Source of the DNA: Cladochytrium replicatum
Lineage: Eukaryota; Chytridiomycota; Chytridiomycetes; Cladochytriales; Cladochytriaceae
Direction: 5' to 3'
Assembly (NCBI GenBank): GCA_025526935.1
Contig: JAHLKD010000020.1
Span: 248,001-312,000, forward strand
DNA: 64,000 nucleotides
Both the position numbers and the translations under genes were made by a program. The notes beneath the pieces were generated by a model. That model was not told where the DNA came from. It did no database searches and saw only the letters and a list, made by a program, of their open reading frames with translations. Positions 1-54,923 of the stretch are shown in pieces (the first letter of the stretch is position 1; each line of letters begins with the position of its first letter).

Positions 1-734
1 ACAAAAGCATAACTTACTTCAATATTTTTCGTTATGTTTCTTCCCTACCGTTGAAGCCCAAATTGCCAAATGAATGTGGAGATCAAGATCATGGTGTTAA
101 TGAAGAGAGCAGCTTTGATCAGGTTTTCATTGAGAGAAAACGGTGTTCTCTTGCCCATGAGTTGGATGAGAAGAGCATACAAAACAAGCCGGATTCAGTT
201 ATGTCAAGTTCAGCAAGATGCAAAATCTTCTCTGAGCAGATCAGAACGAGATCGAGTGCCGTGCCATCACCATAGACGAATGCTCTGCTGTGTGCAGTGT
301 TCACAGCTCCAAAGTTTTCTATAGAAAAGTTGGCAGTTTAGCGAACACTGAGCCACTAATGTCACCCAAAACACTAAGCCATTTCGATGTGGTAATCACT
401 AGCCGTTTCACGGATCCACAAAGCTACCGTGCGAGTGCCTGTGTTTGTGGATCTCTCGGAAATCGGAAACTTGGAGGATTAATAAAGACGCCATGAAGAA
501 ATGGGGGAAATATCACGGTCGACAGCCATATCCACACATAATCCATCATTGCAACAGAACCATCATCGTTAAAGCATACGCTGGTCATCAAACAAATGGG
601 AAGGAGATTCATTTTTAATTCCCGAAACGTCACCTTTGTTTGATTTCAAGTCAGCCATTGCGCTGGAGTTTCCAACGTAGTATTGTTTGTTTATAATGAC
701 GCCAGTCTGAAATGTTGATTTCAGCCTGTGGCAA
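1..734. repeat. Left arm of inverted repeat a
   Basis: This stretch is the reverse complement of 7373-8108 with only scattered mismatches and small indels. The shared block ends abruptly on the inner side after 'cagcctgtggcaatt' (about 734 here, 7373 there). It already matches at base 1, so the arm probably continues outside the window. It encodes no gene I recognise. The longest shared reading frame gives a hydrophobic peptide of about 62 residues (minus strand 424-633 here, plus strand 7495-7683 in the other arm) containing 'MMDYVWIWLSTVIFPPFL'. No transposase or terminal target duplication is visible. Confidence 0.85.
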
Positions 735-1089
735 TTTCATCCACGGGCCGGCGCAAACATGTTTACTCTCCTATTTACAATAGGCTTGAGGAAGAGTTTA
801 TGGAAGAGCGTGATCCTTTGCTTAGGAGCACTGGAGGAGTAGAGCAGAATGACAGCGATGCTTACGCTAATGGATCTGAGGAGCAAGCGTCAGACCAGGC
901 CACGGGCTGCTTTTGTGGAGTTTGCAACCTCTTACGCGGGTGGATCAACGGGAATGGGAATGAGCTTGAGACCAGAAAACCTCTTGGCGACGAGGGGCTG
1001 TGAAAAGGAAGTGCCGAAGATGCCTCCAACGGCCCCTCCACAATTCACCATACGGTCGAGTCCAGTCGCAAACCCTTCCCGACGTGCAC
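735..1089. other. Spacer with a possible ORF remnant
   Basis: The plus strand stays open from 728 to 1003 without an ATG at its start. It would encode an acidic peptide of about 90 residues with a Cys-rich patch ('CFCGVC'). It lies directly between two repeats and matches nothing I know. It may be a remnant of an exon; I see no promoter or complete gene. Confidence 0.25.
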
Positions 1090-6026: not shown

Positions 6027-6589
6027 AATCTAGGTGTTGCGTGATTGCTATTTTATGCGTCTTTTCTTTCACTTTGACTTTGCAACATCGAAACAAATTC
6101 CTCATATCATTATGCGAGTGTATGATCATGTCTATCTTGCATGTAATAATTGTAGTAAGCAACAAATCAAGTCATCAATTTACTACCGTAGAGACGTGCC
6201 ATCCCGAATCAACACAATCCCAACAAGAGAGCGACCATCATTGGTCACCCGTTTTCATAATGCGATTCTTTTACCTGAGCAGTCAACGCCCCTTACTCCA
6301 ACGGAAACACATCTTCAAAGCAAATATTTGGCGTGAGTTTAAGAGACATGAAAAAAAGCTTCGCACATCCGTTAACTTCATCTTTAAGGCACCTCTGTGT
6401 GTCAGCTCAAGTTTCGACTATTGTTACACGGCGTCGAGATTGTGCCCACAATAACTACAGGAGTGAATCGACAAATGCTCGGGTAACTCTCCAGCATTGA
6501 CTGTGCGAGCACTTTTGGGTCGGACGGTGCTCCAGCTTTTTTCACATAAGAGCTCACCTTGTACTCTCGAGGCTGCGATACATATTCGC
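6027..6589. other. Gene-free spacer
   Basis: This is the 3' flank of the unknown gene. It holds only short open frames on both strands and no recognisable motif. A diverged start of the membrane-protein relic that follows may lie in its last 100 bases. Confidence 0.4.
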
Positions 6590-7372
6590 TTCGATTCCGT
6601 TCGCCCCTCTTGCATGCCTTGGATGTGCTCTGGTTGTCTCTTCGTGCAAACGAACGGAATGCTGGGTGGGCATTCGTGTGATTTCATGACTGGCTTCCGC
6701 AGCGTTTCTGGTGCTGTCAGTGTTCCTTGTTTATTTCGGCTACAGTCATGCAAAGGTAGCGTGTTTGTATCTGAATCAGCCTGTTTGGATAGTTTTTGGT
6801 GTCGACGTTTTGATATGCGTTCTGCTGGTCCTGAAGTGTGCACGATGAGAGCAGAATCCGACTTTGTTGTTGAAACGGACGGCTCATTACTCGTTAAGAC
6901 TCGCGGTTGAAGGCCAAACTCCAGAAAACCTGTCGATAATGGGCAAGAACCTAAAGCAGAAGTTGAATCTGGGCAACGGCGAAAGGTTCAGTGTGCATGG
7001 TTGATGCTATGCCCTCCTGTGACACTTGGCGAACTTCGCTGCACCTTATATCAGGTTATTCGGGTCGTGGGTGCCTTCTTTTCATCTCTCCTTGCAGTCA
7101 TTATTTCTGCGATCCTATCCAATGGCTGCTCAAGGCTTTTGAATACCTCCACATTTGGTTCCACCCACCAACCCTTGGAACTTTCGCGAATCTCTCCATT
7201 GTCATTCCCGGCCGTTCTGCAGCGCTGAGACGCCCAATACCTTGCGGTGTTGCATAGCGGTGCTCTTTATGGTGTAAATCCTGCTGTTTCAGCTCGGTTC
7301 CAAAGCTCCTATAGTTTGGGATACGAGATGAGTCTGAAGGATGACAGCCTTTGAGAAGGCCCGTTGATCAAT
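6590..7372 (+). pseudogene. Relic of the local membrane-protein family (copy D)
   Basis: DNA here aligns along the plus strand with the middle of copy A. For example, 'gcatgccttggatgtgctctg' matches the coding DNA of the 'ACLGCAL' membrane segment. Bases 7080-7250 still spell a diverged 'SNGCSRLL' segment followed by the remains of the 'LSLAISGR' segment. The block just before 7372 resembles the coding DNA of the Cys-rich outer domain ('L.DD.L'). Frames change several times and there is no start. The relic is cut off sharply where inverted-repeat arm a begins at 7373, so the rearrangement that placed the arm also truncated this copy. Confidence 0.7.
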
Positions 7373-8108
7373 TGCCACAGGCTGAAATCAACATTTCAGA
7401 CTGGCTTCATTATAAACAAACAATACTTCGTTGGAAACGCCAGCGCAATGGCTGACTTGAAATCAAACAAAGGTGACGTTTCGGGAATTAAAAAATGAAT
7501 CTCCTTCCCATTTGTTTGATGACCAGCGTATGCTTTAACGATGATGGTTCTGTTGCAATGATGGATTATGTGTGGATATGGCTGTCGACCGTGATATTTC
7601 CCCCATTTCTTCATGGCGTCTTTATTAATCCTCCAAGTTTCCGATTTCCGAGAGATCCACAAACACAGGCACTCGCACGGTAGCTTTGTGGATCCGTGAA
7701 ACGGCTAGTGATTACCACATCGAAATGGCTTAGTGTTTTGGGTGACATTAGTGGCTCAGTGTTCGCTAAACTGCCAACTTTTCTATAGAAAACTTTGGAG
7801 CTGTGAACACTGCACACAGCAGAGCATTCGTCTATGGTGATGGCACGGCACTCGATCTCGTTCTGATCTGCTCAGAGAAGATTTTGCATCTTGCTGAACT
7901 TGACATAACTGAATCCGGCTTGTTTTGTATGCTCTTCTCATCCAACTCATGGGGCAAGAGAACACCGTTTTCTCTCAATGAAAATCTGATCGAAGCTGCT
8001 CTCTTCATTAACACCATGATCTTGATCTCCACATTCGTTTGGCAATTTATTCTCCAACGGTAGGGAAGAAAGATAACGAAAAATATTAAATTAAGTTAAG
8101 CTCTTGTG
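7373..8108. repeat. Right arm of inverted repeat a
   Basis: This is the reverse complement of 1-734. It retains a slightly more intact frame than the left arm, ending in a hydrophobic segment encoded at 7970-8063 ('ALFINTMILISTFVWQFIL'). The arm ends about 140 bases before the start codon of membrane-protein copy A, so it forms part of that gene's upstream region. Confidence 0.85.
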
Positions 8109-8250
8109 TCAATTCAGTGGCGTGCAGCAAGGTAGCAAGGTGCTGCATGGCGGCTAACAGAGATGCAGGGACATCCATGGCATTTACTATAAAACGGGCC
8201 CTAAAACTCTCACTTGAAAGCTGGAACACAAGCGAACTGTTAAGAGTCAG

Positions 8251-10254
8251 ATGGATTATCTTATAACCGTGCGTGTGGTGTCAACCTGGCTCAATTTCTT
8301 CTAAATTAACTTCATCTTTAAGACTGTATTCATCGATCCGGGTGTCTGGTTAGTACTGGATATCATCTTTTTGGTCCTTATCTGGAGAGCATACCGTCAT
8401 CCGTGGATTGAGTCACCTCTAGGACCGACATCTACGCTGCTGGGGCTAATCGTCCCCTCGTTTCGGAAGCTCTTCGATGGGAGATTGGAGAAGTATCTCT
8501 ACATTGGAGCAGCTATCTTACGGTCGGCAATCTGGATAGGTGGCCCATTACTTCCAACAATCGGATTTCCATGCTTTATCGTTTCGACATTTTCGTTTCT
8601 CCCGCCTCTCACAACAGTGACCCTGATCTTTGGTGCAAGGATGCCGCAATGGGACGATTGGATAATGTTGATTGCGTATGGCTTACCATACTGGGATAAC
8701 TTTCCAGACCATTTTGCACCACTCGCGTGTCTCGGATGTGCGCTTGTGGTCAAGCTGTGCTCTCGAAACGATTATATGTGGGTGACCGTCCGGGCGATAT
8801 CGTGGTTGGCTGCAGCTGCATTCCTTGTACTGTCAGTGTTGAGGATTTTGAGCCCGTACAATTCATGTGCACTCCGATCGTCGGTTGTGAACGTTATTGT
8901 TCCAGATGTTTTGATGTGGACTCTTCTGCTCCTGAAAAGTGCGCGATGGGAGCCGAATCCAACTTTAGCGAAAACTGAACCACCCAGGTCTGAACAGTAC
9001 ATGGATCTTCCGATTGACGAAGAATCATCCCTTGTCGCCCAAAACAACTCAAATCCGGGCAGCGATTCAAAAGCATTGAAGGAAAGATCAGCACCTCAGG
9101 AAATCAACAAGGCACTGCGAGTATGTCGTAAATTGGAATTCGTGCTGTTGATGCTCTACTCTATCGCTCTCCACTCTGTACTTTTCACGGCCTTTCTCTC
9201 ATTGACGATCTTTTGTGTGGCGTTGCTTGAATCAGATCAACTAATTAGAGTTGAGATTACTCTGCTTTCGTCGTGGTTGGCGTTCCTCATTTCGATGATC
9301 CTTTCCGAAGGCTTGTCGAGGCTTTTGAAAGCTGCTGTATTTGGATCCCGGGAGATGACGCCAGGAAGTTTCCCTCAGCTCTCCCTGGCAATATCGGGCC
9401 GTTCTGCAGCGTTGAAACTGAAAAAACCACAATTACTTGCTCTATTCTTATCCATAATCTTCATGGCGATCAATCCAGTTATTTCGGCTCTATTTCAATC
9501 GTCATTAATTGCAGAAAATCGGCGCTTTTATGTTGAAGAACAAGAATCAACCGCTTCATTAGGTACCGCAATTGCTCATTCAGTATCAAATGTCAGCTAC
9601 TCTTACTTGGCTTGGGAGGGAAGCTGCTCCGTTCGTAACGGGACGGCATCCAGATTTGAGACAGAACAGTGCAAGGCGCCGTTTTGGAAACTGCAGGATG
9701 ACAATCTCTGCAACGGCCTCTTGAAAAGGGGTTCCCTGCGCGGATACAGCACGGTCCTGTCAGGATTTGGATCGGGTCGATGCATATTTAGTGGACCGCT
9801 TTTCTCGACATTCCAGACAAGCGTTACGATCAACAACACAATATACTACGGAAACGTCTCTGCAACCGCTGATGTCGCATTGAACACAGTGGCGTTGTTT
9901 CGGAACTTCACCGTAACTTTGCTGCCCGCTTGTAATAGTACACGCTGCCCGACCAATGTCACTTATTGCCAGATTAGTGGGCTATGCGTCGGTTCGGACG
10001 TTGACCGGGGAAGAAAGACGATCGAGTTGAGTTTGAATGGGGCTACATACTTCCAGCTCCAGGTCTATCATGTCGGAATGTATCTCCCCTTGCTTAATTT
10101 TGTTATAGCTGTCATTGCGTTTGTGTGGCCAATGTTTGCGATTCGAGATCTTGATACTCCAATCGTCCTGGAACCCGTGCAATCACTGCCAGGCTCCCAG
10201 AACTCATCCCACGAGGTTCAGAAAAATCAAAAAATATCCGAATTCATATCGTAG
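8251..10254 (+). CDS. Multi-pass membrane protein, family copy A
   Basis: I do not recognise the family. The model is a tiny first exon 8251-8268 (MDYLIT), a 54-base GT-AG intron with a good branch site, and exon 8323-10254, giving 649 residues. About seven hydrophobic segments lie in the first 220 residues, with conserved 'FGARMPQWDDWI' and 'ACLGCALVV' between them. They end at 'SARWEPNP', followed by a soluble linker of about 70 residues. Three more membrane segments carry 'LLESDQLIRVEI', 'GLSRLLKA' and 'LSLAISGRSAALKLKK'. Then comes a 180-residue outer domain with paired cysteines ('WEGSCS', 'QCKAPFW', 'GSGRC') and many N-glycosylation sequons, and a last membrane segment 'AFVWPMF.IRDLDT'. 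Compared with copies B and C, one base is missing near 10168. The annotated C-terminus is therefore out of frame, while the family tail continues in another frame to about 10285. Plasma-membrane or endomembrane location is inferred. Confidence 0.75.
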
Positions 10255-10285
10255 ATGGAACTGAATTGCTTCAAATTGGAGATTG

Positions 10286-11635
10286 ACGACGCACAAAATA
10301 AGCGAACATACTTCTTTCATTTACCTTTCCTTTTCTTGTAAGTGGGGGGGGGGGGGAGTTATTCTGTCATGTTTTTCACATTCTTTTTGTTTTCACTATC
10401 ACTATTTCGTTTTTTACCTATTGAACACCGGTTTATTCTGTAATATCCTTCGCAAAAGTCTTCATTGATAACCACCTAGTTAATTATTATTAGTCTAATT
10501 AATATCCGAATCATAGTACCAGTTAAACAGCCCCCCTACAATTCCCTTGTAACTCTAAGGGCCTAATTTATATTTTCTACCATTAATAGTCAGATTAGCT
10601 TAAATAGTAGTATTGGATATTCTATTTTAATATTAAATAATTAGTTTCCGAAAGGGAGTAAATAATTATAACTTAAGGTTGTAAGCCTGTTCCCAAGTAG
10701 TATCACAAGCAAACGCATACGGATGCAGAAGGCAGAATCAAAATAGAGGTGAACATTATTTTGACAAGATGTATTCAACAAGATGTATTCAACAAGTCTT
10801 CTGTTTCATTTGTGTACTTTTCTTTGTCGTGATCGAATTTCCCACATGACACGGACCAGTCGGTTTCTGCAGCTAAAGCCTGCACCGATACCATGAAAAT
10901 GGCAAGTCGTTGATTGTTGGCCCACCATGATTAAAACAGTTATCATACTTAAAGTGCATGGTGGAAGTGAATGTAAACTTCATGCGATTTCTCTGATCTG
11001 TGATAGAAAATTTTGTGTGGGAAAGGGTCAAACTCATGCTCGCGGAGTACATCAACTGTTCCCAAATAGCATTTACAATCCAACATGAGGGAGCGCTGGT
11101 CTGTCGGTCACACAGGCACAGCAGGCAATCAACACTATCGCTGTGCCGTGTACGCAAGCTGGGTCCATTCTCACACATTGATATTTCGAGGAAATGGCGG
11201 CGGTGCCGTTCACACCGTTTGACACTGCGGCCGACATGTAGAACTCCCTCACATTTCCTGCTATTTAAGCGAGCATAACATCCCCATTATTCAACCAAAG
11301 AAATACTCGAGTAGATTCTCATGACAAACATTGTTTGTCCTCACTTCTTCTCTGACTCCCCCATTGGCCGGGAGGGGTCAAACCTGGGTACTCGAGCGCT
11401 TAATGCTTTCATCCCTTTCATTTATCACCAGGTTGCAGTTGTAAGCCTGCTGATGATGAAAGGCTTGATAGCACACCACAGCTCGGCCATCTGTCATCCT
11501 GTCATTGGCTCGCGTGATCCAATAGCTTCATCTTTCTTAATTTTCTGCTGGTTGGATGCAGATCAATGAACATCGGCATGTCATAGTGCGGACGGAAAAA
11601 ATTACATTAAATGCCAAGATATACATCACCAACGA
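10286..11635. other. Gene-free region with AT-rich island
   Basis: A run of G residues lies at about 10346-10357. Bases 10440-10690 are strikingly A/T-rich, full of 'taattatta'-like words, unlike the surrounding DNA. A 14-base unit 'acaagatgtattca' is repeated in tandem at about 10763-10793. The rest (10850-11635) contains only short shadow frames. No gene or RNA is recognised. Confidence 0.5.
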
Positions 11636-13160
11636 CTACCCATCCTCACTCATGATCTCGTCTTCGCCATCGTCACTCCCAACTCCATCCATATCCGCCA
11701 AGCTCCTCGGCGCCATATCCACAAGGCCCTTCCCACCAACCCGTCCCAAGACCCCTTTGCCCCCAACACCTCCAATAACTCCCTTCCCTCCAACCCTCCC
11801 CACAACTCCAAACCCATTGCCCTCCTCCGCACCACTGCCCTCCCAGTCTTCCTCCTCGTCCGAAGTCCACTTGACCGCTCCACTCCTCTCGTTCTTCTCA
11901 CCCACTCCCGCGACCGTCGTACCGTCCGCCTCGTAATACACGCTCTTGACCACAATGTTGCCTTCCTCGTCTTCAGAGTACTCTTCCACGACGCGCCTGT
12001 CCGCGACTCCTGCGCTGCTCGAGCTTTCGCCGCTTCCCTTGCGCGGGCTCGGTGGGATGTGCGGTGGCGAGGTCGCTGGTGTTGTTGCGGAAGCGGCTGG
12101 AACAGATAAGAGGGGTGCGGGTTGCGGGGGTGGATGCTGGGGCATTCCGGCCGCGGAGGAGGAGGTTGCGCCGGGTTGATGTGCGGCGTTGTATGTGATC
12201 ATCTCGCGCTCGTATCGCGCCTTCGACTCTTCGTATAAATCTGTCGCAACATAAATGAGAAGATTCAAAAATGCACGATTGCATGCAACGAACCAAAGTA
12301 TTCTAGACAAGATGAATGCATCAGCGCGAACTCGCATCATAATTTTACAGTGCGTACTCTGTTTGCTTTCCTTGTCCAGCGTCTTCCATCGCTGCCCGAG
12401 AATTCGGGTCGCCTCTCCGAGACTAAATCCGCCCTTCTCGTCCTTGATCTCCCCGCGATGCATTTCGCAGTACACAAAAAACGCATTCGCAGGCTTTTTG
12501 GGAAGGTTCGGGTCTGCTTTTGGCTTTTTCGCCTTCTTTTCGTGCTGAGGAGGGTTCGGTGAAGGAGGTACTGCAGGTAGTGGTGGTTGTGGTGGTTGAG
12601 CAGTACGCTGTCCCTTGTGGTATGCATCTTCATCTTCCGATCCCGAGCCCTTAAATAAACCGGTTAAGAAAATATGGACTGTACAACTGACACGAGGAAA
12701 ACGTACGCCAGCGGCTCTGTCGTACCGAGGACGAGATTCGATATCAGAGAACGATGCGTCGGACCTGTATGCGTCCGACGGTAAAGTCTGCTTGTAGCGT
12801 TGAAAGAGCATGCTTGGGAGTAAAAGATTACATCATTAAAGTGGCCTTATCAAAACAGTTGAGTTACACACTTCTTTTCGAGCTTCAGTCTTTGAATCGC
12901 ATTTTTTGCTTTCGTTAGCTTGAGCGTGAGTGCATCGTTTTCCTTTGTGGGATTCGAACGTTAGCCAAGAATTGCGACACCTAACGACCACACACCAGCT
13001 CCATTTCAGAGACCTTGCGCTTGAGGTCCTTGTATCTTCTCCTGTAGCCTGCAACCAATAGAATGACGTAATTTCATTGAATTGACCACCAGTATTTACC
13101 ATCCTGCCCCGGTCCCGGTCCCGTCTGCGGGTGAGAGTTTTGTTCGGACGAGTTGAGCAT
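11636..13160 (-). CDS. HMG-box protein resembling INO80 subunit Nhp10
   Basis: The six-exon model on the minus strand is 13160-13100, 13048-12996, 12942-12872, 12812-12707, 12649-12358 and 12240-11636, giving 395 residues with every intron GT-AG and every phase consistent. The protein starts MLNSSEQNSH. It then has a basic coiled-coil of about 50 residues (residues 21-65, 'YRRRYKDLKRKVSEMELEND'), a Pro-rich linker, one HMG box (about 125-195, 'PKKPANAFFVYCEMHR' through 'YEESKARYE', interrupted by a 117-base intron), a Pro/Ala stretch, and an acidic C-terminus. The order coiled coil, then a single HMG box, is that of Nhp10-type subunits of the INO80 chromatin remodeller. That assignment is inference; a generic HMGB protein is the alternative. 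The location is nuclear. Confidence 0.85.
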
Positions 13161-13363
13161 GTGGATTATCTGTGGCTTGGCAAAGCTCAAGCTCGATTTG
13201 TTCGTGGTATGAATATTCTTTTTGAACGCTGCATCGCATGGGCGGTGGAAGTAAAGAACCCGCCAAAAAAAATACTAATAACCTAGGAGGGCCAAAAAAA
13301 CAATAATAACCTAGAATCTTCGTCGAGCCAAAACAGCAACACGTACTGCAACGTGGGAAATCA

Positions 13364-15543
13364 TCACGGTGCAATACTGATTGATTCCGTTTCATTCACT
13401 CTGCATATTCGAATCTTGTGGCCCTTCCGGACATTATGAGTCGCATTAAGCGAGGCAGCGTCGTAGATTCGTAAGGCTGTGATTGCGCGCGATCCGTTCA
13501 CAATTTCGGTGTCCACATCGAAGATCATATAGAACGGCCACACAAATGCTATGATGGCGGTAGCAAACCACAAAAGCAAGCCGATCGAGCCGGTCTTGTT
13601 GAGCTGTATCTGGAACGGGGTCTGCCCCGTCATGCTCAGCGTAATCGTCGACTGTTCCGCCGACCGACTCATACACGATTCGGGATTCGAAGTACAATAG
13701 AGTCGTTCTTCGAGTGTAACGTTCAAGTCTCGAAAGTACATAACTGAATTTGATCGGAGCTCGGCAAAAGCCATAGCTTTTGCGGAATAATTCCTGTCTC
13801 TAATTGTGACCTGTGCGTCAAACGTTGCCAAGAGCGCTCCACTGAACTTGCAGCGTCCCGATCCAAAACCTGAAACAATATTGTTGTTTGTTTCCTTAAC
13901 AGACTCTTTCAATAAACTATTGCAGATTTTGTCATCCTTCAATGTCCAAAGGGGAATTTTACACTGAGCGTTGGATTCGGGTGGGGACGTCCCGTTAAGA
14001 ACAGAACAGCTTCCCTGCCAGATCTGGTAGCCTTGTTGTGAAGTATCCCCAACCAAGCTTGCGTAAGCAGTTACAGCGGGAAGTGTAGTCTTCTGTGTAG
14101 AGTGAAAGATCTGGTCTCCCGAAGTGAATGAAGATTGGAACAGAGCCGAAACAATGGGATTTATCGACATGAAGGCGATCGAAATGAACAGCGCAAGTCG
14201 TTGACTCTTTTTGAGCCTCAGAGCCGCGGCCCGGCCAGAGATTGCTAGCGAGAGCTGAGCAAAGTCTTCGAGTGTTGCTTGGGAATCTAATGTTGAAGCT
14301 TTCAAAAGCCTCGAGCACCCACTTGAAAGAGTCGCCGCGATCAGGAACGCAAAGAGCGAAGACAGAAGTGAAATTTCAACTCGCAGTGGTCGGTCTGACT
14401 CCAACAGTCCGCTCGTAAAGTAATCCAAACAATAGAACGTTGCGACAATGGCTCCGGAAATTGCGGGTGGGAAGAATATCCACAGGAAGTACTGGAGCTT
14501 CCGCAATACTTTAGTCTTACTCCTTACGGATTGCACCGGCACTTCCCTTGCCTGCGCAACCTTCCCAGGCCCGGCTTGGTCATCAGTCACAACCGTGGCG
14601 AGCCCGCTGACATGGGCATTAGATGGAAAACGGGAACGAAATTCCTGTCCTTCTGACTGCTGCCGCTGATTGGCAGCTTTCTTCAAAATCGGATTCGGCT
14701 CCCATCTTGCACTCTTCAGCAGTAGAAGGACCCACATCAAGATCTCACAACCGATTCCCACCAAGTTCGACAATCCTTTGCTACGCACAGGGTCGTTGAA
14801 GCACGTCACCTTGCGTTCAAAGTAGGTCCAAAACATCATCGCACACAGCAAAAGAAAGACAGCAGTCGCAAGCCATGAAATCGCCCGTACACCAAACCGG
14901 CTGTACTCCTTCGGCCTGCACCACCTGACCACGAGCGAACATGAGAGACACGCGACCGTCGCAAACGGGACCGGAAGGTAGTAAACATAATCCACGAATC
15001 GGTTTGACTCGAAATTCTTCCTCTCAGTGACCATCGTAAGTACGGAATCTGGATTCTTCACATAGCCTATGACCGGCAAAGCAAAGGTGACTAACGTGAT
15101 CCAATCGTCCCACAGCGGCATCCGAGCTCCAAAGATCAGTGTCACCGTGGTGAGAGGCGGGAGAAGTGAAAACGGAGACGCGTATGAACAAGAAACGGCA
15201 ATCGTGCCCGCTGGCATAGGCTCGATGAGCGCACTCGGCAGAATGTATGAAAATATCCAAATTACAGATCTCAGAATGGCGGCCAGGATGCAGAGAAACC
15301 TTTCAAACTTCCCACTAAAAGCCCGCCGCAATGGCGGTAGGAGCTGGCCCAGAAATGTGGTAGTTTGTTCCAGTTGCGATTCTCGGGTTCTCCAGATAGC
15401 CAACATGCAGATGATGTCCAGCATTAGACTGACACCGACAAGCGATCCTGCAGCTGAAAACGCTGTTATGGACTGGTACATGGGTTTCAACAGAGGGAAA
15501 GATATACGCTCCGCTCACTTACCCCTCTTATATTGAAGTCCAT
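13364..15543 (-). CDS. Multi-pass membrane protein, intact family copy B
   Basis: This is the best-preserved member of the local family. The model is exon 15543-15523 (MDFNIRG), a 50-base intron, and exon 15472-13364, giving 709 residues. It shares all family blocks with copy A: 'FGARMPLWDDWI', 'RWEPNP', 'LLESDRPLRVEI', 'GCSRLLKAS', 'LSLAISGRAAALRLKK', 'INPIVSALFQSS', the outer-domain cysteines, and 'AFVWPFYMIFDVDTEIVNG'. It also has the complete tail 'ALRIYDAASL...VRKGHKIRI', which is out of frame in copy A. About ten membrane segments are visible, with a 90-residue hydrophilic linker after segment 7 and a large, probably extracellular, sequon-rich loop before the last segment. It lies inverted relative to A and C, next to repeat arm b. 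No known transporter or receptor motif is seen, so its function is unknown. Confidence 0.85.
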
Positions 15544-15814
15544 TGTTTAACCAGTCCTGACGCTAAGAATTGGTGTTTCTACAATAAGAGACTCGATACC
15601 ATTCTTTCTGGAATGCTTTGCGGGTCCTCTTTATCCAAAAAAAGCTCGGCTTGCACATGCAGGGCCGACATCCCTGTAACAACAATCCACAACCCACGCC
15701 GGAATTAATTGGGCAGGGCAGTTACTCCCTTGGAAAATTTTATTGGCATTGGTTGGTAGAATCAGGGTCATTAACGGCAGCGTTCTTATCTGCATATTGG
15801 ATCAGCACATAGGG
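15544..15814. other. Upstream flank of copy B
   Basis: This short non-coding stretch lies between the start of copy B and repeat arm b. A small open frame on the plus strand (15618-15812) has no recognisable content. Confidence 0.4.
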
Positions 15815-17125
15815 ACTGGATACAGGTGCCACTACGCATTGTTCCACCATAGTTCTCGACAGACTGGCAAACGAAAAGAACTTTTGATCTGGGAATCCAA
15901 GCAGACCTGACCTGGGATCAAAATGAAGCGACGGACTGTGGAGGGTCCAAGATGAGCGACGCCTTGGTCCTATCAAGCGAACAAACAGTGAATTTAATGT
16001 CTTTCCATGCGAGATTCTTTGCTCTCTCATAGCTATGCTACCCTGTCGTAGTTATGTTGCTAAACGAGCAGAGACCCTAACACAAGAAACGTAACACGAA
16101 GTTGATCCCAGGCATGTAGAAGCTCTTGAGTCATTGAGATTGAACACGAACGGATGAGCTCTCTCGATGTATAAGGGAGTGAGAGGCCTTAGGACTCTCT
16201 AAAAATTTGTATAGATCATTCTTTCAAAGTAATGCTTGCTGTGGATCCAAATGCGGACCAGCGCAAACAGCCCAAACAAGAGTCCCACAGGTGCCATTCT
16301 TCTTCCTGGCCCTCCTTCCCTGCCGTAATAATCACAGTAGTTCCCTGATTCCTTGCTCTTCTTGGGATCTGGATTGTCCCAACAGCGGCTCCTGCTCTGT
16401 CTCTCTAGGATTAGTTTTGATCAAAAAGATTAGAAGTTGAGTTATGAACAACGTGCCGGATCTACCCACCTTAGCCTCTATCGATCTCGAGCTTCACATA
16501 ACAATCACCTTGCTACATTCCGCGGCCAATACCAGTACATACTGTTCGCCTCCCAAAACTCCTCATGGTGTGGCCCAAGCGTATCCACACCCTCACGAAG
16601 GCCTCCTCCCACCAGAAGGAATCATACGGGAGGCGGGCATTCTAAACTATGGGGATCAAGTCCACATACTCCGGCATGTGGTCCTTGTTGATAGTCATTA
16701 CCCGGATCTGCTTTGATCCGTGAAGTCTTCGGTTGAGACACTTTCGCAATAATCCAAACAAGGTCAACTATGTTAGAGTGAAGGAATGGGTCGAGGATGC
16801 CCAATAGCACATGTCAATCCTTTCCTACTAAGCTGCAGTTCATCGTTCAAACAAGAATCACTGTTACTGGGAAATGTAAAGCGCTTAGCGCTCTGGTTTT
16901 GGGGGGGGAATTCACGACGACCTTGTTGCAGGCTGATTGGTTGGTCTTGCTTACATTTAGCGAAAACAAAGTAACGGAGTATTTCAATATACCAATTTAC
17001 ATATGCCCGAAAAAACTCTCTAACGAAGGATTTTCCGAAACGAACTGTTGTTCATAATTTAAGAAGGTAATATGAATAATGAAGCTCCTTTAGAGAATAT
17101 TTTCGAATGTCGTCAACCAGTAAAT
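15815..17125. repeat. Right arm of inverted repeat b
   Basis: This is the reverse complement, block by block, of 1090-2470. The minus strand at 16600-16760 spells remnants of a peptide with 'PEYVD' and 'QIRVM'. Read on the minus strand, this arm is followed by membrane gene B, whereas the left arm at 1090-2470 is followed by the unrelated gene at 2612. The unit may therefore once have been repeat plus membrane gene. Confidence 0.75.
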
Positions 17126-17139
17126 ATGTCTGCATTAAC

Positions 17140-18290
17140 AATTGCAATCTATGTGCTCACCTTTGCCTTTCGTTGTGCCAAAGGTCCCGAGCTCGGGCTT
17201 CTGCAGCAGGTCGAAGCAAGTACAGGCTCTCGGATTCTGAAGGTAATGTGTCATCCAGAACATAATCGAGTTCCCAACATGGAACCTGGTACGGGCGGCG
17301 GGTTTTTGGGACGACCGGTATCAGCGAGACATATTTGGGAGTAAAATCCACTTTGATCTTCATGCAGATTATGCTTTGTCGTCCGGATTGGCTGCGGATG
17401 CGGTTTGCACTCGATTCACTAAACTTATCTAGTATGAACAAACAAGAATGAGTGGATATGCTCAAATTCCGCCACAACGACGATATTTCCCTGAATAAAG
17501 CTCAATGGCATGCTCCAAGAAACCTGTTTTGGGAGCTGTCCGGTGAACTTTTGCGTTAAGTTTATGGCTGATTGGCCAAAGTTAGATATTGGAATATGAA
17601 TGCCTCCACCATATGATGAATTTTCGTTATAAGGTGCATGTTCTGGGTGTGTTTGGTAATGTGAATAGATGAAATAATGTGCTCGGAATATCGAAGATAA
17701 AGAACGAAAGAATGAAAGTAGATCGCTTACTGTATAAGTGCAAGCACAAGCAAGTGATTTGGAACCGACGAACGATATGCGACAACCTTGGAACCAATTC
17801 TGGACCACCGCAACAACCCCACACATGCACCCAGCTGACGACAATTCCTCTTCACTGGCAGATCTAATCTCAGAGGTGGCACCACATCCTTGATCTTCTC
17901 CAGGTCGAGATTGTCCCAACAGCGCCTCCTGCTCTGTCTTTCTAGGATTAGTCTTGATTAAAAAAGGTTAGAATTTGAGTTATGAACAACGTGCCGGATC
18001 TACCCACTCAGCCTCTCGCGATCTCGAGCTTCCCATAACAATCGCCTTGCTACATCCCGCGGCCAATACCAGTACATCTGTTTGCCTCCCAAACTCCTCT
18101 AGGTGTGGCTCAAGTGTATCAGCCCGAACGTAGTCTTCTTCCCATCTGAAGAAACAGTATAGGCGACGGGCTTCCAAACCACCGGGATCAAGTCCACATA
18201 TTCGGGCATGTAGCCTCTGTCGATTCTCATCACCCTAATTTGCTTGGATCCATGAAGCATGAGAATAAGACTCTTCCTCATTTCTCCCAA
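17140..18290 (-). pseudogene. Decayed gene family with 'PEYVDLIPVVWKP' motif
   Basis: On the minus strand, 18290-18100 reads a peptide with 'GSKQIRVMRIDRG', 'PEYVDLIPVVWKPVAYTV' and 'TTFGLIHLSHT'. After a gap, 17920-17710 reads 'NLDLEKIKDVVPPLRLDLPV' and ends at a plausible splice donor. At 17590-17440 it reads a segment with 'LPKQVSWSMPLSFIQGNIVV', and at 17400-17160 a second, diverged 'PKYVSLIPVV' segment. Related fragments occur in both b arms (1500-1830 and 16366-16760). No continuous gene can be built. This looks like a repeated, decayed coding unit, not a functional gene. The family is unknown to me. Confidence 0.45.
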
Positions 18291-19559
18291 AGTGGTGGGC
18301 TATTTAAGAAGCAACGGCGTGAGTGTTGATTGTTACTATGTACGGAGGTCGTGTTTGCCCAGCTGTATGTGCTCGTGGTTCAAACAAAATCGGTGCTATT
18401 AGAACCGTCCAGCTGCTTTCTGCGTTTTGTTTTGGGAGTGATTCTGAAGACGATAACTGCGGGTGATTGGTCGAGTGTATTTACAATCCATTTAAAATGA
18501 GAATAAGCACTGAGCAAATAGAGCCTAATTCAACAAGCGGGTAATCATGTTAAAGGAGCTAGAATAGTGTTTGACCATCATGACCGGCATCATCACGGAT
18601 GAGTCCCAATTTGGTTTTCTTTCTGTTGCCCACAATTTTACACAAACTGTGAGTTATCCACCTGAAATGATCGTTTTGATGCTTCCCAAACAATACAATC
18701 TGACAATGTCACAACGTGTGAAAGGATCCAACACGAAATTTTCGCCGTCAAACATTTCAACCTCCCGCTAGAATTGTCGATCGCACAAAACAATAGAAGA
18801 GCCAAACGAACTTGAATCTATTCACAATGAGTTCACCGGCACATCAGCCGTGTCCTTGCAATTGGACGATGGATAAAAATGTAATCCGGAAATGTCGAAA
18901 AGGGAGTCAGTACTTACAAAATCCATTCTTGTTGTGAACGATGCGAGGCCCTTCGAAGATCAGATGAAATATGTCGCATTCTCAAAGCTCTTTCTTTCTG
19001 GGTGAGGACTGAGGACAAGAATGTTTTATCCATGTTCACCGAATTGATTACTGCATAATTTTCATCAAAAAAGCAAAACTAATTCTCTCCTTATACTCCA
19101 GCGCCAGCATACACAATTTAAGCTCCAGTCTGCTTGACTTCCACCACTCCAGTGCTGCCAGATTTCCATTTGCACATGAGAGCACATCGAAACGCAAGCC
19201 GTGCTGCACCAGTAGTCTCGGCGAGGACTATCAGGATGCTAATATTGCATCTACCAAACACAGGCCACACACCGAGTGACCGTTCCCGACTAGAATTCAA
19301 TTTCATTGTCAGCATTCGATAAGTGAGAATTTAAAAATGTGTTAAAGGTACAACAAGAGATTCAGCAACAGCTCGACCGATGGAACGATGACCACAAATT
19401 CTACCCGAATGTGATGAATGAGTGATTATCATCCGAGCTCATTTGCCTGGTTGCATCGAGATGGCGGACAGGGGCTTGCATGGTCGACCCTAGAGACTTG
19501 CATGGTGAGCCCTGGAGGCTGGCTTTCCCTATCTTTTATTTTGCATTCACAGTTTTGAG
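18291..19559. other. Gene-free region
   Basis: There are only short open frames on either strand, no recognised repeat, RNA or protein motif. The last 100 bases may hold the promoter of family copy C. Confidence 0.4.
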
Positions 19560-21616
19560 ATGAAGGTCTTGAACCTTCCACGTGCTGTGGACAACGCAAA
19601 TGGTTTCTGTAATTGTTTGGAACTTTCAACCGAAATACTGTTAGAACGTACTAACCCACTCCAGTATTTTGAAGTAAACCTTGCATCAGGTGGTGTTTGT
19701 ATTGCATTGGACATCGTCTGTTTGGTCCTTATCTGGAGAGCATACCGCCACCCTTGGTTGGACATTCGACAATCGCCGCTAGGACCAACTTCCACAATTT
19801 TGGGCCTGCTTGTGCCTTCTTTCAGGACTCTCAGTAATGGAAAAGTGGAAATGTACATGTCCATCAGTGCATCAATCCTGAGATCAACTCTCTGGATAAG
19901 TTCACAGTTAGTGCCATTGTTGGTACCAACGTCCAGCGAAAATGCGACTACGATAGAATGTCTCGGCGTTTCAACGTTTTCGTTTTCTCCCGCTTTTCAG
20001 CACGGTAACACTCATTTTTGGAGCGAGGATGCCGCAATGGGACGATTGGATCATATTGTTCGTGTTCGGGTTGCCATTCACAAACTCAGCACTTCTCATC
20101 CCTGTTCAGTTTGCACCACTCGCCTGCCTCGGATGCGCGCTTGTGGTCACATTGTGTAGACGAAAGGATTACATTTGGGTAGGCGTCCGGGCGATTTCTT
20201 GGATCGGGGCCGCATTGTTTGTTGCCAACTACTCAGTGACGACACTATTTATCTACGAGCCAGAAAAGAGAATTTGCTTGAGAGATCAACCAGCGGTGAT
20301 GTTTATCTGCGAGTCTATGATGTACATTCTTCTGTTGTTCAAAAGCTCACGATGGGAGCCAAATCCGACTTTGATTGCTCGCAATGAAGCTCGGAATCAA
20401 TCCAAACAATATGTTGACCTACCATTGGACAAGCAAACCAGTTTGGAGGACGATTCCTCTTCATTAATTCCAGAAGATCAATCCAAACCTGCTCCGCAGG
20501 ATGACACAGATGGAGCACCAACAGCAGATATATGGCATAAGATGCAGTTCATTTTGTTGGCGTTCTGCCCCCTTTTGTGTCAGCTGCACTCATAACTGCA
20601 ATTCTTTGTTTCGCTATCTTAACGAACGGGCTACTGGAATCAGATCGACTAATGCGAGTTCAACTCTCCTTGTTTTCGTCGTTTCTCGCATTCTTGATTG
20701 CAACACTTCTTTCTAACGGCTGCTCCAGGCTTTTGAAGGCTTGATCAACCCTGCTATTTCCGCTCTATCGCAATCTTCTTTGGTGCCAAAGAATGAAGTT
20801 TTTTGCAACCGCCACCAGCCTCTTAAAATGTTTGCCACCACAGTCGCACACTCTATCTTGAATGCTTCTACTACGGAAGGTTTTCAATTCAGTTGGGATA
20901 AGAAAACCATCAAAAACTACATGAGCTGGCAAGGAAGCTGTTCAGAGGGCAGTGGGACGATTATCAGCCAGTGCCAAGTCCCGTTTTGGATATTAATGGA
21001 TGACAACCTATGCAGTGGATTACTGAAAGCAGCTGTCGATAGTAAGCTCCAGCTTGCATATTTTACATCACTTCCAATTCTACAAGGATTTGGTGCAGGT
21101 CGCTGTATTTTTAGCGGATCACTTTCGGCAACATTTCAGACAGGAATACTCATCAACAATACCAAATACGCTGTGAATGCGACTGACATGGTAGACATCA
21201 GGTCGAATGCTGCTGTGTCATTCCGAGAGCTGAATATGACGCGGCTCCCCGAGTGCAATGATACCTTAGTGGATAGGCTTGCATCTGCTGATTTGAATAT
21301 CACCTTAACCATGAGGAGCGACTCCATCTTTCAACTCCAGGTCTATATGATGGGTTCCTCAATATTTATACTGTTGTCTTTTGTTACTGCCTTTATGGCG
21401 TTTGTGTGGCCGATGTTCATGATTCGAGATCTCGATACCCATATCGTCAACGGAACTCGCTCATTTACAGCCTTGCGTATTTACGACCTTGCCTCGTTGA
21501 AATCAGCTCACACGGTCCGAAAAGGCAACAGGATTCGAATATCCACGGTGGGTGGAGCAGAATCGATCACTATCTCGGCAAGTGATGCTTCCTCTGTGGC
21601 TGGTATTATGCTTTAA
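19560..21616 (+). pseudogene. Membrane-protein family copy C, broken
   Basis: This copy aligns with A and B over nearly the full length. The start is an ATG at 19560; a probable intron ends at 19660 with a good branch site 'tactaac'. Lesions relative to A and B are one extra T in the run at 19983-19986, one extra C in the run at 20568-20572, and a deletion of roughly 130 bases at 20740. The deletion removes the 'LSLAISGR.AAL.LKK' segment and shifts the frame. After it, 20741-21616 is open and encodes the complete outer domain, the last membrane segment 'AFVWPMFMIRDLDTHIVNG' and the family tail. The two homopolymer indels could be assembly errors, but the deletion cannot be explained that way. 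The gene is probably non-functional. Confidence 0.75.
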
Positions 21617-22368: not shown

Positions 22369-24669
22369 ATGGTAGAGGGTCACCAGGTCCACAGGGTCGC
22401 GGCTGCTCACTCGAGACTGCTGCTCGGTCGCAGATTCGCTGCTGCTTCGCCAAACAAGCGCTTCGTCGACGGCGCGGCTGTCATTCACGGCAAATACCTC
22501 ATTCGAATTGAAGCTCACGGCAAGAATCTATTCTACTGTGAGTCAATGAGCCTGCCATGAATTGTTACATTCATTAAGCATGAGCTTACATATTCTTATC
22601 ACCGTTTTCGCTCGACTATTTCGGTATCGCATGCTTACTTCCATACTCAAAAAGTCTTCAGCCCAGATCCACCCAAATCCTCCTCTGCCAAACACAATGC
22701 AGACCTTACATCGATCATTCGCGTCCACTTTGGAATGAGCGGTCGATGGCGCTTCATCCCCGTCTCCGCAGGCGTCAACACCATCCGATCACAAATCCGT
22801 CAATCTCCCCCACCGCTATCTGCATCCGCACAACCACTCCTGGCGCGTAGCAGAAGTAGCAGAAACTCAAAATTCGCTGAAGAAATGGCATCAGCATCAG
22901 ATGCAAAGCCAGGGTCGCGAAAGCGCGGTCGCAGCGAACCCGAACGTCCCCCGACACCTATCCGAAGCAGCCCGTTCTCTCCCGACGACGCTGCCGGGCC
23001 TGAATTTCATCTCAGAGGGCCAGTTAGCCCCCCTTCGTCAACATCCGACTCCTCGATATCACCCGATCCGAAATTCACTCGGCCGAAGCCTATTTTGGAT
23101 CTCGATAGTAATCCGTTTCTGGCAGGACCACTCAAGCCGAATCGAATCGAGTTTGAAGAGATGGAAGAGGATGTTAATCATGATGTGAGCGGCGTTGCGT
23201 CGAGGGAAGAAGACGGGGCTATGGAAGTGGAGCTCAAAGATGCAGTGGAAGGCACCGGCTTTGGAAACCCCACCACAGTGCGCCTTCTCATCGTGTCCTA
23301 CGAAGCTCTAGACAGTACCACAGCGACATCGTCAAATTCGAGTAGCAAAGTCACCAATGCCGGTGAACCAGTCTCTGCGCAGCTCTCCTGCCAAACCCTC
23401 GAACTGCTCGAACCAGGCGGATATGAATCATGGGTGAAAAAGCTCGGTGAAGACCCACTCCGCGAAGACACTCCCGACTCCGACGGACGATCCGCAGAAG
23501 ATCGAGCCTGGGACAGCATCCGCGCACTCAAACGCAGCATCGGCCACGTCCTCATGGACCAAGACTACATCGGAGGGGTCGGCAACATCTACCGCGCCGA
23601 GATCCTTTTCAAATCGGGTATCCACCCAGAAACGCCTTGCAACCTCCTCTCCCGCGAACACTTTTCGAAAATATGGATGCACTCAGCGGCCTTGCTGAGG
23701 CGTGGGTTCACGAGCGGGTCGATATTGACTGTGGACCCTGACGAGGCGAAGACGTTGGGACCGCCGTGGACACGACGGTATATTTACAACCACGCGCAGT
23801 GCGGACGGTGTAAGAGCTCTGTGATGAAGTGGGATATGGGCGGGCGGACGGTATACGCTTGCTTGACGTGCCAGCCGTTTCCGCGTAGCAACGTGACTGG
23901 CACACCGACGAAAAGGAAACGGTCGAAGGTGGACGACATGAAGGACGAGGATTATTCGGTGGACATTGAAAATGTGTTGACACCTGCGCGACTCAAGGCA
24001 CTCCGTGCCGCAGTCCCAGTCGGAAAACCCTTCCTGAGCCATTGTGCGCCGGAGGACGGACAAAAGAAGAACAGCCCCAAACTCCAACGATCACGCAGCG
24101 CACCCAACCCCAAAACTATCTCCAAAGACTCGAGCGAGGACGAGACCAAGACGCCAACAACGACACCCAAACGCCGCCGTCTAAACTCATCCAAACAACC
24201 AGATCAATCCACCGAGAGTTCCGACGACGTGGATTTTTCATCTTGGACCGTCGAACGCTTGAGATCATCGCTTCGATCCGGCGGTCATGCGGTCTCAGGG
24301 AACAAAGCCGAACTCATTGCACGAATGCGCAGCGTCGCTTCCGAATCACCAACAACGCGAGCTCGCTCACCGCAGAAAACACCTGAGAATCCGCCACCGT
24401 TGGTAGTGCCCGGTGCACCAGTGGCGCGAAAGCGGAGCAGGATCGCAGCACGAAAAGAGACGAGCACTCCAACACGACGACGATCACGCAAGAGAAGCGA
24501 GCCGTTGGAACAGTCTGATGAAGACGAGATCGACGAGGGTCCGGTGAAGTGGAAGGGGGATTTGATGATTGCGTCTGCGAAAGAGGCACGGGAGGAGAAG
24601 AGGAGGGCTGGAGAGAACGATGCAGTCGAACATGTTGCGCTCACAAACGATATCGACGAAGTGTTATAG
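22369..24669 (+). CDS. Fpg/Nei-type DNA glycosylase with SAP domain (NEIL3-like start)
   Basis: The enzyme class removes oxidised bases in nuclear base-excision repair and nicks abasic sites. The model is exons 22369-22537 and 22655-24669, giving 727 residues. It begins MVEGHQVHR, so the residue exposed after Met removal is Val, as in animal NEIL3, not the Pro of Fpg/Nei; Glu3 is kept. Lys in 'HGKNLFY' and 'VHFGMSGRW' (about 84) belong to the N-terminal domain. That domain is interrupted by about 110 residues of low-complexity sequence (about 100-245). The H2TH segment is at about 345-395 ('DQDYIGGVGNIYRAEILF') and the zinc finger C-x2-C-x16-C-x2-C at about 438-462 with the 'GGRTVYAC' loop. 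A C-terminal SAP domain (about 583-618, 'WTVERLRSSLRSGGHAVSGN') should aid DNA binding, and the basic tail looks nuclear. The start is chosen because the catalytic N-terminus must lie there. Confidence 0.9.
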
Positions 24670-52370: not shown

Positions 52371-54923
52371 TCACTTGGTTGGGTTTCCCCAGGGGTCGAT
52401 GTTGTAACAGTAATAATCGAGGTAGCTGTTGTCCGGGTCTGGGTTGAGAGTCCAAATAGGGAAGACGATACCGTTGGCCGTGAGCGCGGTGGCGAACAGA
52501 ACAGCGGCAGCAACACCACCAGCCTGGGCTGCCGCCAACACGTAGGTGTACTTCTTCCACCAGTCGGGGTACTTTTTCAGAATGTAGTACGAGAATATGA
52601 AGCCCATTAATGGCGCAACGACGTAGAAGTTCTGGAACTGATTAGAACCTGGGAACATTAAGAATCAAGTTTTCCATTTCTAAAGCAGTGGCATTCACAA
52701 ATTTACTTACCGCTAATGGCGACGATGAGCGGAATGTTGAGCATATGCCAGTTCTTAGATGGGTAATACTTGCTAATTACCCAGACAAGGACAGGTGCAA
52801 TGGCACCAACCAAGAAGCCCCACAAAGTGTTCTGGTAGACTGATCCGATTCCGAAGAAACGAGCAGGGGCGATAGCGCCCCAGATCGCTCCAGCGTTATA
52901 GAACGTGAGGTAACCAAGAACTTGCCAGTCACCCTCTCCAAGAGAAATTGATTTCTGGAACATCATCCACCAAGCAACCCCGAGGTAAATGACAGAACCA
53001 AGGACAGTTCCGTAGATTTGAGCAGCGAACATGGAAATCGGGGGGATCTTGAGGTAATGGCCCTGCTTCAGATCCGCGAGGAGGGTGATCGCTTGGTATG
53101 CAGTGTTGAATCCAACCGACTTGTAGCACATGACGGCGACTGTGTCACCGGGCATAAGAAGACCGGCAACGAATTCCTGGAGCACGTTCAGGTAGATCTG
53201 CGTACCAGTGACGCCGAGCACAACACCGATGGGTACAAGAAGGACGAACGCGGTGGCAATGGCCAAGATAACACCCCACACGGGCATACGGAACTCGGTG
53301 AACGCACAGACCAAGCACAGACCAATGGTCCAAAGGAGCAACCATCCACCGTAGAACCACTCGGGAATGTCGGGGTAAGCGGCCATTAGCTTGTTGTGGA
53401 TGTCGGTTTCGTCGTTGATCTGCTTGATCGCAGCCTTGAATTGACGAACGATGTCTTTGCCGTACCACACCGCGACGTGCGCGACCATAGCCGGAAGAAC
53501 TATAAAGTCGACCATGTAGACAACGGCAAAGTAATCGGAAATGTAGATCGGCCCGACTTCGTTGTACTTGGTTACGTTGAGAGAGTAGTCTGGCTTCGAG
53601 TAGAGATCGCGGGCCCGCATTTGGATGCCATTCTTGTCGAACAAGGCGTTGGTGTTGAAGTACGGCTTGGTGTCGTTTGTGCCAGGGATGATGTCCTTCT
53701 TGATACCACGCCATAATTCTTCAGGGTGCCCGAAGGGGTTGGTGTAGTGCATCGGGACGGAAACGAGGTACACGAAGATCCAGTTGCCGATCCAGCTCTG
53801 GAGCTGGTAGATCCATGGGATAAGGTAGACACCGGCACCAATGTATTGCAGGTCGAAAGTGAGACCGAGAAGACCGGGCCCGGAAACCGGGGGACTAACT
53901 GAGCCAAGGAAGCGAGCAATCTTGTTTGAGGAAAAGAGGCAGAGCAAAGCAACAGCCTGCAATGCAGTGGCGAAGATCTGATGGGAACGGTAAGCATTAA
54001 CATGGATAGACGGAGGTTAAAGACGCTCGTACGTTGGGAATAAGCTCATAGATGAAAATTCCAGCAAGCGCGATCCAGAAGAAGCTGAAGCGAGACATCT
54101 TCCAGGTGTTCAGCTTCAAGTCGGGCTTGTGCAGAGAGACAAACAGAGCGGTCTGCGACAAGATGCTGGGCCACAACATAGCAGCAGGCTTAACGATGAA
54201 GCGACGAGCAAGGCCGGCCATACCGAAACCGACGAGCTGTGTGGTGATGACCCAGAAGAATGATTGCACAAAGTCAATCTTGTCGTTGGCCATGAACATG
54301 TCCATGCGTTGGGAGACGACGTTGTACAAGGCGTAGGGGCTCGCACTTCCGGCCGAGGCCATAACTGAAATGAGAACGTGCTCCTTGATGCTGAATGGGC
54401 CAGGGTTCAGCGTGAAACTGAACTTGCCAATGTTGATCTTCGTCGTTGGAAGGATCTTGGCCAAGATCAAACCAAGAGGGTAGGAAAGCAGGACGGCCAA
54501 AGTAGGGTCTACAACATGAGACAGGTAAGACCAGATCATGCAAGTATTTTGATAATCTAACCAAGGGTGATCGAGTTGGTACGGAACGAGAAGATGGCGT
54601 TGGCAGCAGCCATTCCAGCGCACCAGAACGTACCGAGGATCCAGACTCGAGCACTGTTATCATTGAAAACACGTATAGCAAAGACACCATGACACCTTGA
54701 TTGGCACTTACGACAAGTGAGGGATGTTCGGATCATCGGTTTGAGGAACGATGGCACTGGTAAGCTTGTTAGCCAAGCTGGCATCAGCGTTTTCCGCATC
54801 CAGAGCAAGGGCAGCGTCCTCGGCCGAAATCGGCTCGCCAGTCTCGATATCACCCGCCTTCTTCTCGTCAACGACTTCGAAGACTTCTTCTTGCTTTTCT
54901 TGCTTGGCTTCCGTGTCCGCCAT
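52371..54923 (-). CDS. OPT-family oligopeptide transporter (intact copy)
   Basis: OPT transporters of fungi (Opt1/Isp4 type) import small peptides or glutathione with protons at the plasma membrane. The model is 54923-54712, 54653-54562, 54508-54033, 53977-52711 and 52648-52371, giving 774 residues with all introns GT-AG and phases consistent. A 70-residue acidic N-terminus is followed by about 14-16 membrane segments. Family landmarks include 'NPGPFSIKEHVLISVMA' (the NPG motif of fungal OPTs), 'SPYALYN', 'PFGHPEELWRGIK', 'GHYLKIPPISMFAAQIYGT' (the KIPP motif), 'ARFFGIGSVYQNTLWGFLVG' and the conserved last exon 'PLMGFIFSYYILKKYPDWW'. The next gene upstream is a broken near-copy. The substrate is not predictable. 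Confidence 0.95.

Follow-up and report, generated by a model that had tools for sequence, protein, structure and literature searches.

To our knowledge, how the zoospores of early-diverging fungi sense substrates and partners at the level of receptors is poorly understood. One attractant of zoospores is reported to be the sugar N-acetylglucosamine (PMC12115818). Among described systems, fungal G protein-coupled receptors (GPCRs) fall into 14 classes plus mammalian-type homologs, according to PMC12842992. Gustatory-receptor-like (GRL) proteins, seven-segment relatives of chemosensory proteins, occur one each in two Spizellomyces chytrids, and their candidates were selected at about 350-500 amino acids (aa), with seven segments and the N terminus inside, as given in PMC7746228. 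Here, we describe a multi-pass membrane protein family encoded at 6590..21616 of a 64,000-nucleotide window (C20:248001-312000) of the Cladochytrium replicatum genome (50.5 Mb, 198 contigs). It consists of three intact genes and several dead copies, its protein is under constraint, and two of its members have a mosaic identity at the sequence level. We tentatively favor the view, with a probability we would put somewhat short of even, that it may be a receptor-like protein of the cell surface, variable on its outer face and constant on its inner one. If true, the family would be a concrete candidate for the sensing of substrates or partners by zoospores. The genome contains the flagellar PACRG-type family PF10274 (eight matches, compared to none in 14 control genomes) and, in 73 matches with a best E-value of 1.7e-226, pieces of chitin synthase (PF03142, a profile that also matches in 4 of the 14 control genomes), and we therefore take the host as a flagellated, chitin-making, chytrid-type fungus.

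A first-pass annotation of this DNA had proposed four homologous multi-pass copies, A to D. The homology is clear, with A and B aligning at an E-value of 2e-138 in our tblastn/genome comparison of the window copies, but C and D turned out to be dead, and a further intact gene, E, lies just left of the window, beyond the reach of that annotation. The three intact genes identified by tblastn and genome searches are therefore A and B inside the window and E outside it. Copy A (8251..10254, + strand) has a short exon 1 (8251-8268) and a long exon 2 (8323-10254) encoding 649 aa. An in-frame TAA is found within 8269-8322, where the corresponding stretch of E is open, and we considered whether A might be a pseudogene. 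This was rejected because the stop falls inside an inferred 54-nucleotide (nt), phase 0 intron (8269..8322, + strand), which is indicated by GT...AG borders and a sequence resembling a branch point as well as by comparing A to B, and whose removal leaves A intact. Copy B (13364..15481, - strand) is an intact, intronless gene, with a single frame of 705 aa and a long loop between transmembrane segments (TM) 4 and 5, and copy E (C20:245851-247857, - strand) encodes 650 aa once spliced. Copy C (19692..21616, + strand) is a pseudogene in which homology spans four stretches in shifting frames, with frame changes near 19990 and 20570 and again near 20740, where some 130-135 nt (judged by eye) were lost together with the LSLAISGR block and most of TM10. 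Copy D (6585..7590, + strand) is a degraded relic with stops, where pieces of TM5-TM10 are spread over two frames (6585-6944 and 6980-7321), followed from about 7373 by a small remnant of the outer domain that has a mirror copy at 515-724 of the window. Our eukaryote searches for relatives covered the window's own genome alone, where at least 13 places carry the family, three of them intact and some of the others perhaps parts of a single relic; copy counts are lower bounds, from a genome search that scores best candidates only. Broken pieces were found at four places on contig C70, two on C45 and one on C78.

How might these proteins be arranged in the membrane? Hydropathy delineates TM1-3 and TM5-7, a linker, TM8-10 and a final TM11, with a weak TM4 that passes the 1.2 threshold in B (1.27) and not in A or E. 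The layout proposed previously (seven segments, a linker, three segments, an outer domain and one segment) fits this profile, except that TM4 is below threshold in A and E and that additional windows were flagged and left uncounted, namely residues 80-98 of B (1.27) and, in both A and E, a single stretch of the outer domain (1.24). In the loops of the seven-segment unit, Lys and Arg account for 12 of 71 inner versus 2 of 40 outer residues in A, and for 16 of 67 versus 8 of 70 in B, which favors an N terminus outside and thereby also places the Cys-containing domain outside. Hydropathy, charge and the sequons of A support a predicted N-out protein in which a cytosolic linker connects seven segments to three more, followed by the Cys-containing outer domain and by a final segment that ends in a cytosolic tail. 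The outer domain is 186-198 residues long and has eight Cys in A and six in B, four of them shared by all of A, B, C and E. Its earlier description as sequon-rich holds for A (7 versus a shuffle mean of 2.6, p 0.006), but not for B. There are also two (A) and three (B) sequons in predicted inner parts.

Several sequence blocks had been listed as invariant. FGARMP.WDDWI and RWEPNP are indeed kept in A, E, B and C, but LSLAISGR.AAL.LKK is complete only in A, E and B, and B departs from FVWPM (FVWPF) and from DLDT.IV (DVDTEIV). Conservation is highest in blocks predicted to be cytosolic or to lie at the membrane border. Dead copies on C70, C45 and C78 carry at least one of the blocks [RK]MPQWD, RWEPN, ISGRS-AL and RDLDT, and this recurrence marks these blocks as the signature of the family. 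Since the long TM4-TM5 loop of B is shared by one dead copy on C45, the family likely comprises at least two subfamilies.

Searches by hmmscan with A, B, exon 2 of E and pieces of C found no family over the curated Pfam cut-offs, as had been anticipated, and no GPCR model at E-values up to 10; the matches listed below cut-off are Mem_trans, SLATT_5, MnhB, DUF6044 and DUF6706. The annotation had named beforehand, as the observation that would speak against a new family, a clear hit of copy B on a transporter or receptor family; no such hit was found. No family was detected in NCBIfam for the two copies scanned, nothing better than an E-value of 0.05 in PHROGs for four members, nothing credible in the Protein Data Bank (PDB) by sequence, and no relative in viral contigs, prokaryote contigs or phages, plasmids being outside the search. 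Literature searches produced no paper linkable to the family, texts not being searchable by sequence. The one lead was a sub-threshold match to Mem_trans (PF03547), with 21.5 bits for A, 22.4 for E and 24.1 for a cut stretch of A (best E-value 1.7e-5) compared to a cut-off of 25.7, whereas neither B nor the pieces of C matched it. None of five controls (one reversed and four locally shuffled, a small set) reproduced it, two of them matching other families instead (E-values of 0.055 and 0.22), and we thus do not regard the match as mere composition. However, hhalign of the family against 12 bacterial Mem_trans members returned a probability of 0.2%, over a different stretch and from a shallow family alignment (Neff 1.5), and a PDB profile search found no PIN carriers, although the PDB contains them. 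We therefore rejected homology to Mem_trans transporters, since the match is limited to A and E, lies below cut-off and is unsupported by profile-profile comparison.

How does the family compare to described systems? As in fungal GPCRs, the predicted layout has seven segments with the N terminus outside, variable outer loops and better conserved cytosolic loops. Unlike GPCRs, it matches no GPCR profile, and the seven-segment unit is followed by four more segments and an outer domain. For the segments and the N terminus, this putative likeness comes from hydropathy, with its weak TM4, and from the Lys/Arg bias. With the PIN-type carriers of the Mem_trans family it shares a long linker between two groups of segments and the sub-threshold match of A and E, in contrast to the missing match in B and in the pieces of C and the 0.2% of hhalign. 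The Mem_trans family is not known to include an outer domain ahead of its last segment. Finally, like GRL, these are seven-segment membrane proteins in a chytrid, but at 649-705 aa, with an N terminus predicted outside and an extra four-segment part, they fall outside the GRL selection described in PMC7746228.

Copies A and E belong to an inverted duplication, whose arms share 97% identity across 3.1 kb and 94% across another 0.8 kb. The A arm (7358..11502, + strand) matches the E arm at 97% over 7358-10459 and at 94% over 10688-11502, with 10460-10687 unmatched, and the part of the E arm within the window (1..736, - strand) pairs with 7370-8107. As many as 39 of 471 positions (~8%) differ in a block spanning TM2-TM7 (8480..8950, + strand), and 14 of 200 do so upstream in 7958-8157, whereas the stretches 8250-8458 and 8958-10250 hold just 2 differences in 209 positions and 4 in 1293, respectively. 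The longest identical runs are 597 and 543 bp, and when the 72 differences were randomly placed over 3091 columns, a 597-bp run was reached in 1 of 10,000 trials. Outside the TM2-TM7 block there are three nonsynonymous and two synonymous codon changes. The simplest reading would be that an older duplication, ~7-8% diverged, has since been homogenized tractwise by conversion, with TM2-TM7 spared; alternatively, a recent copy might have acquired this block from a lost paralog. Compared over the seven-segment part, A and E are roughly as far from C as from B, so neither resembles a chimera with C. Intact and dead paralogs are thus clustered together with an inverted duplication and conversion-like mosaic identity, and the birth-and-death evolution suggested by the first-pass annotation is supported. 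The A/E pair would represent a natural experiment, in which near-identical genes differ mainly in one receptor-like block.

Divergence is where the two predicted faces of the protein part company. Between A and B, the NG86 method gave a nonsynonymous divergence (dN) of 0.48 and a synonymous divergence (dS) of 2.1, which is saturated, for a dN/dS of about 0.22. With dN far below dS, the protein is constrained. In the A/E block, where outer and inner sides were assigned from hydropathy midpoints, the outer side has 19 nonsynonymous and 6 synonymous codons of 77 (dN 0.154, dS 0.150) and the inner side 3 and 4 of 64 (dN 0.021, dS 0.092, dN/dS about 0.23), the contrast in nonsynonymous codons being significant (19/77 versus 3/64, Fisher p 0.001). 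Two other sets of side labels gave lower p values for these codons and are not relied on. The paralogs follow the same trend, with identical residues amounting to 28/77 outer versus 61/102 inner for A-B, 33/77 versus 78/108 for A-C and 31/91 versus 58/103 for B-C. A-B, A-C, B-C, E-B and E-C all go in the outer-variable direction (Fisher p 0.007 or lower, for comparisons that are not mutually independent), and gap columns fall mostly on the outer side. Between the receptor-like and channel-like natures originally put forward, this contrast favors the former as the likelier candidate, with a channel or transporter as the main rival. If the family is receptor-like, recognition of a ligand or partner would fall to the outer domain along with the seven-segment unit's variable outer loops, the conserved cytosolic motifs R-M-P-x-W-D-D-W, R-W-E-P-N-P, L-S-L-A-I-S-G-R and D-x-D-T would relay this to a constant partner inside, and duplication and conversion would renew the outer face.

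Several observations weigh against a receptor-like protein. TM4 is weak, no receptor family was matched in the Pfam and NCBIfam searches, and the outer domain of B shows no excess of sequons (4 versus a shuffle mean of 2.5, p 0.21). Over the whole gene, A and E have a dN of 0.021 and a dS of 0.030 (dN/dS about 0.7), indicating weak constraint. The midpoint labels were drawn up after the differences had been seen, with TM4 hand-mapped from B, and of 141 rotations of the labels round the block, 9 reached the count actually seen, which makes the positional signal modest. The nonsynonymous/synonymous contrast alone has a p of 0.17 with the midpoints, and of 0.25 and 0.019 with the two other label sets. 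With dN and dS about equal on the outer side, relaxed constraint is as good a fit as diversification, and many transporters also show outer loops that vary faster than inner ones. AlphaFold models were too poor to interpret, both for full-length B (4 rows, pLDDT 34, pTM 0.21) and for its outer domain (8 rows, pLDDT 39), and Foldseek with the latter found no PDB match at E-values up to 0.001 (best 0.61). Ligand recognition and signaling by the family are putative.

A lineage-specific transporter or channel, in which ten or eleven segments would form the conduit, the outer domain a gate or substrate collector, and the cytosolic motifs would have structural or regulatory roles, strikes us as rather unlikely. 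The many segments, the long cytosolic linker and a Mem_trans match in A and E that five controls did not reproduce speak for it, but B and the pieces of C are devoid of such a match, the profile-profile comparison (limited as a test by its shallow alignment) and the PDB profile search gave it no support, and a conserved conduit would less readily be expected to diverge with an outward bias. That same bias would suit a wall, adhesion or self-recognition protein, whose outer face would contact a partner cell or substrate while its membrane part served chiefly as anchor or scaffold, as would an outer domain with six to eight Cys and some sequons, and the clustering of intact and dead copies with conversion-like tracts. 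Yet conserved cytosolic and membrane-border blocks exceed what an anchor needs, and there was no adhesin or wall domain among the Pfam matches, so we hold this to be quite unlikely. Least probable in our estimation, and hard to credit, is a relic family of functionless, decaying duplicates with an outer-face pattern due to relaxed drift. Only 3 of 13 places are intact (bearing in mind that some places may be one relic) and the A-E dN/dS is about 0.7, as decay would have it, but frames of 649-705 codons persist in A, B and E, the A-B comparison puts dN far under dS, and the inner side of the A/E block is at about 0.23. Returning to a receptor-like surface protein, its most specific form would be a chytrid-specific receptor for chemosensing, self/non-self or mate recognition, with an N-out seven-segment unit joined to a four-segment module bearing a glycosylated, disulfide-containing outer domain, and with outer loops selected for diversity as conversion homogenizes the rest; spelled out in such detail, this is unlikely.

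The gene between A and B (11636..12832, - strand) encodes an HMG box, which we take to be of the chromatin HMGB kind. One close paralog was found in the genome (C70, L010 6272-7391, - strand), together with a weak match on C41. This paralog, whose stops fall where introns may be, adjoins a dead family copy, and the HMG-box gene and a family member were probably duplicated as a block. A mating-type reading, with a seven-segment receptor beside an HMG-box gene, is a remote idea, and we found no link to it in the literature.

Other repeats accompany the family. The cluster also contains dispersed copies of a second repeated DNA unit (15939-17121, 17887-18257, 1102-2347 and C20:243439-243814; 68-84% identical), which was found once on another contig (C70:18706-19162); no clear gene or element was recognized in it. 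On both C78 and C45, very similar, secreted-looking Ser/Thr/Pro-rich frames (L011 5535-6648, + strand; L013 700-1820, - strand) are no more than about 2-3 kb away from the dead family fragments, which suggests another shared segmental duplication. A further frame on C45 (L012 5854-6549, - strand), some 1.5 kb away from a dead copy, contains near-identical tandem repeats that are presumably tetratricopeptide-like. Elsewhere in the window, there are a frame resembling a DNA glycosylase of the Fpg/NEIL kind, with an H2TH domain and a SAP-like stretch just under cut-off (22561-24669, + strand), and an OPT oligopeptide transporter (52703-54016, - strand; Pfam E-value 2e-69).

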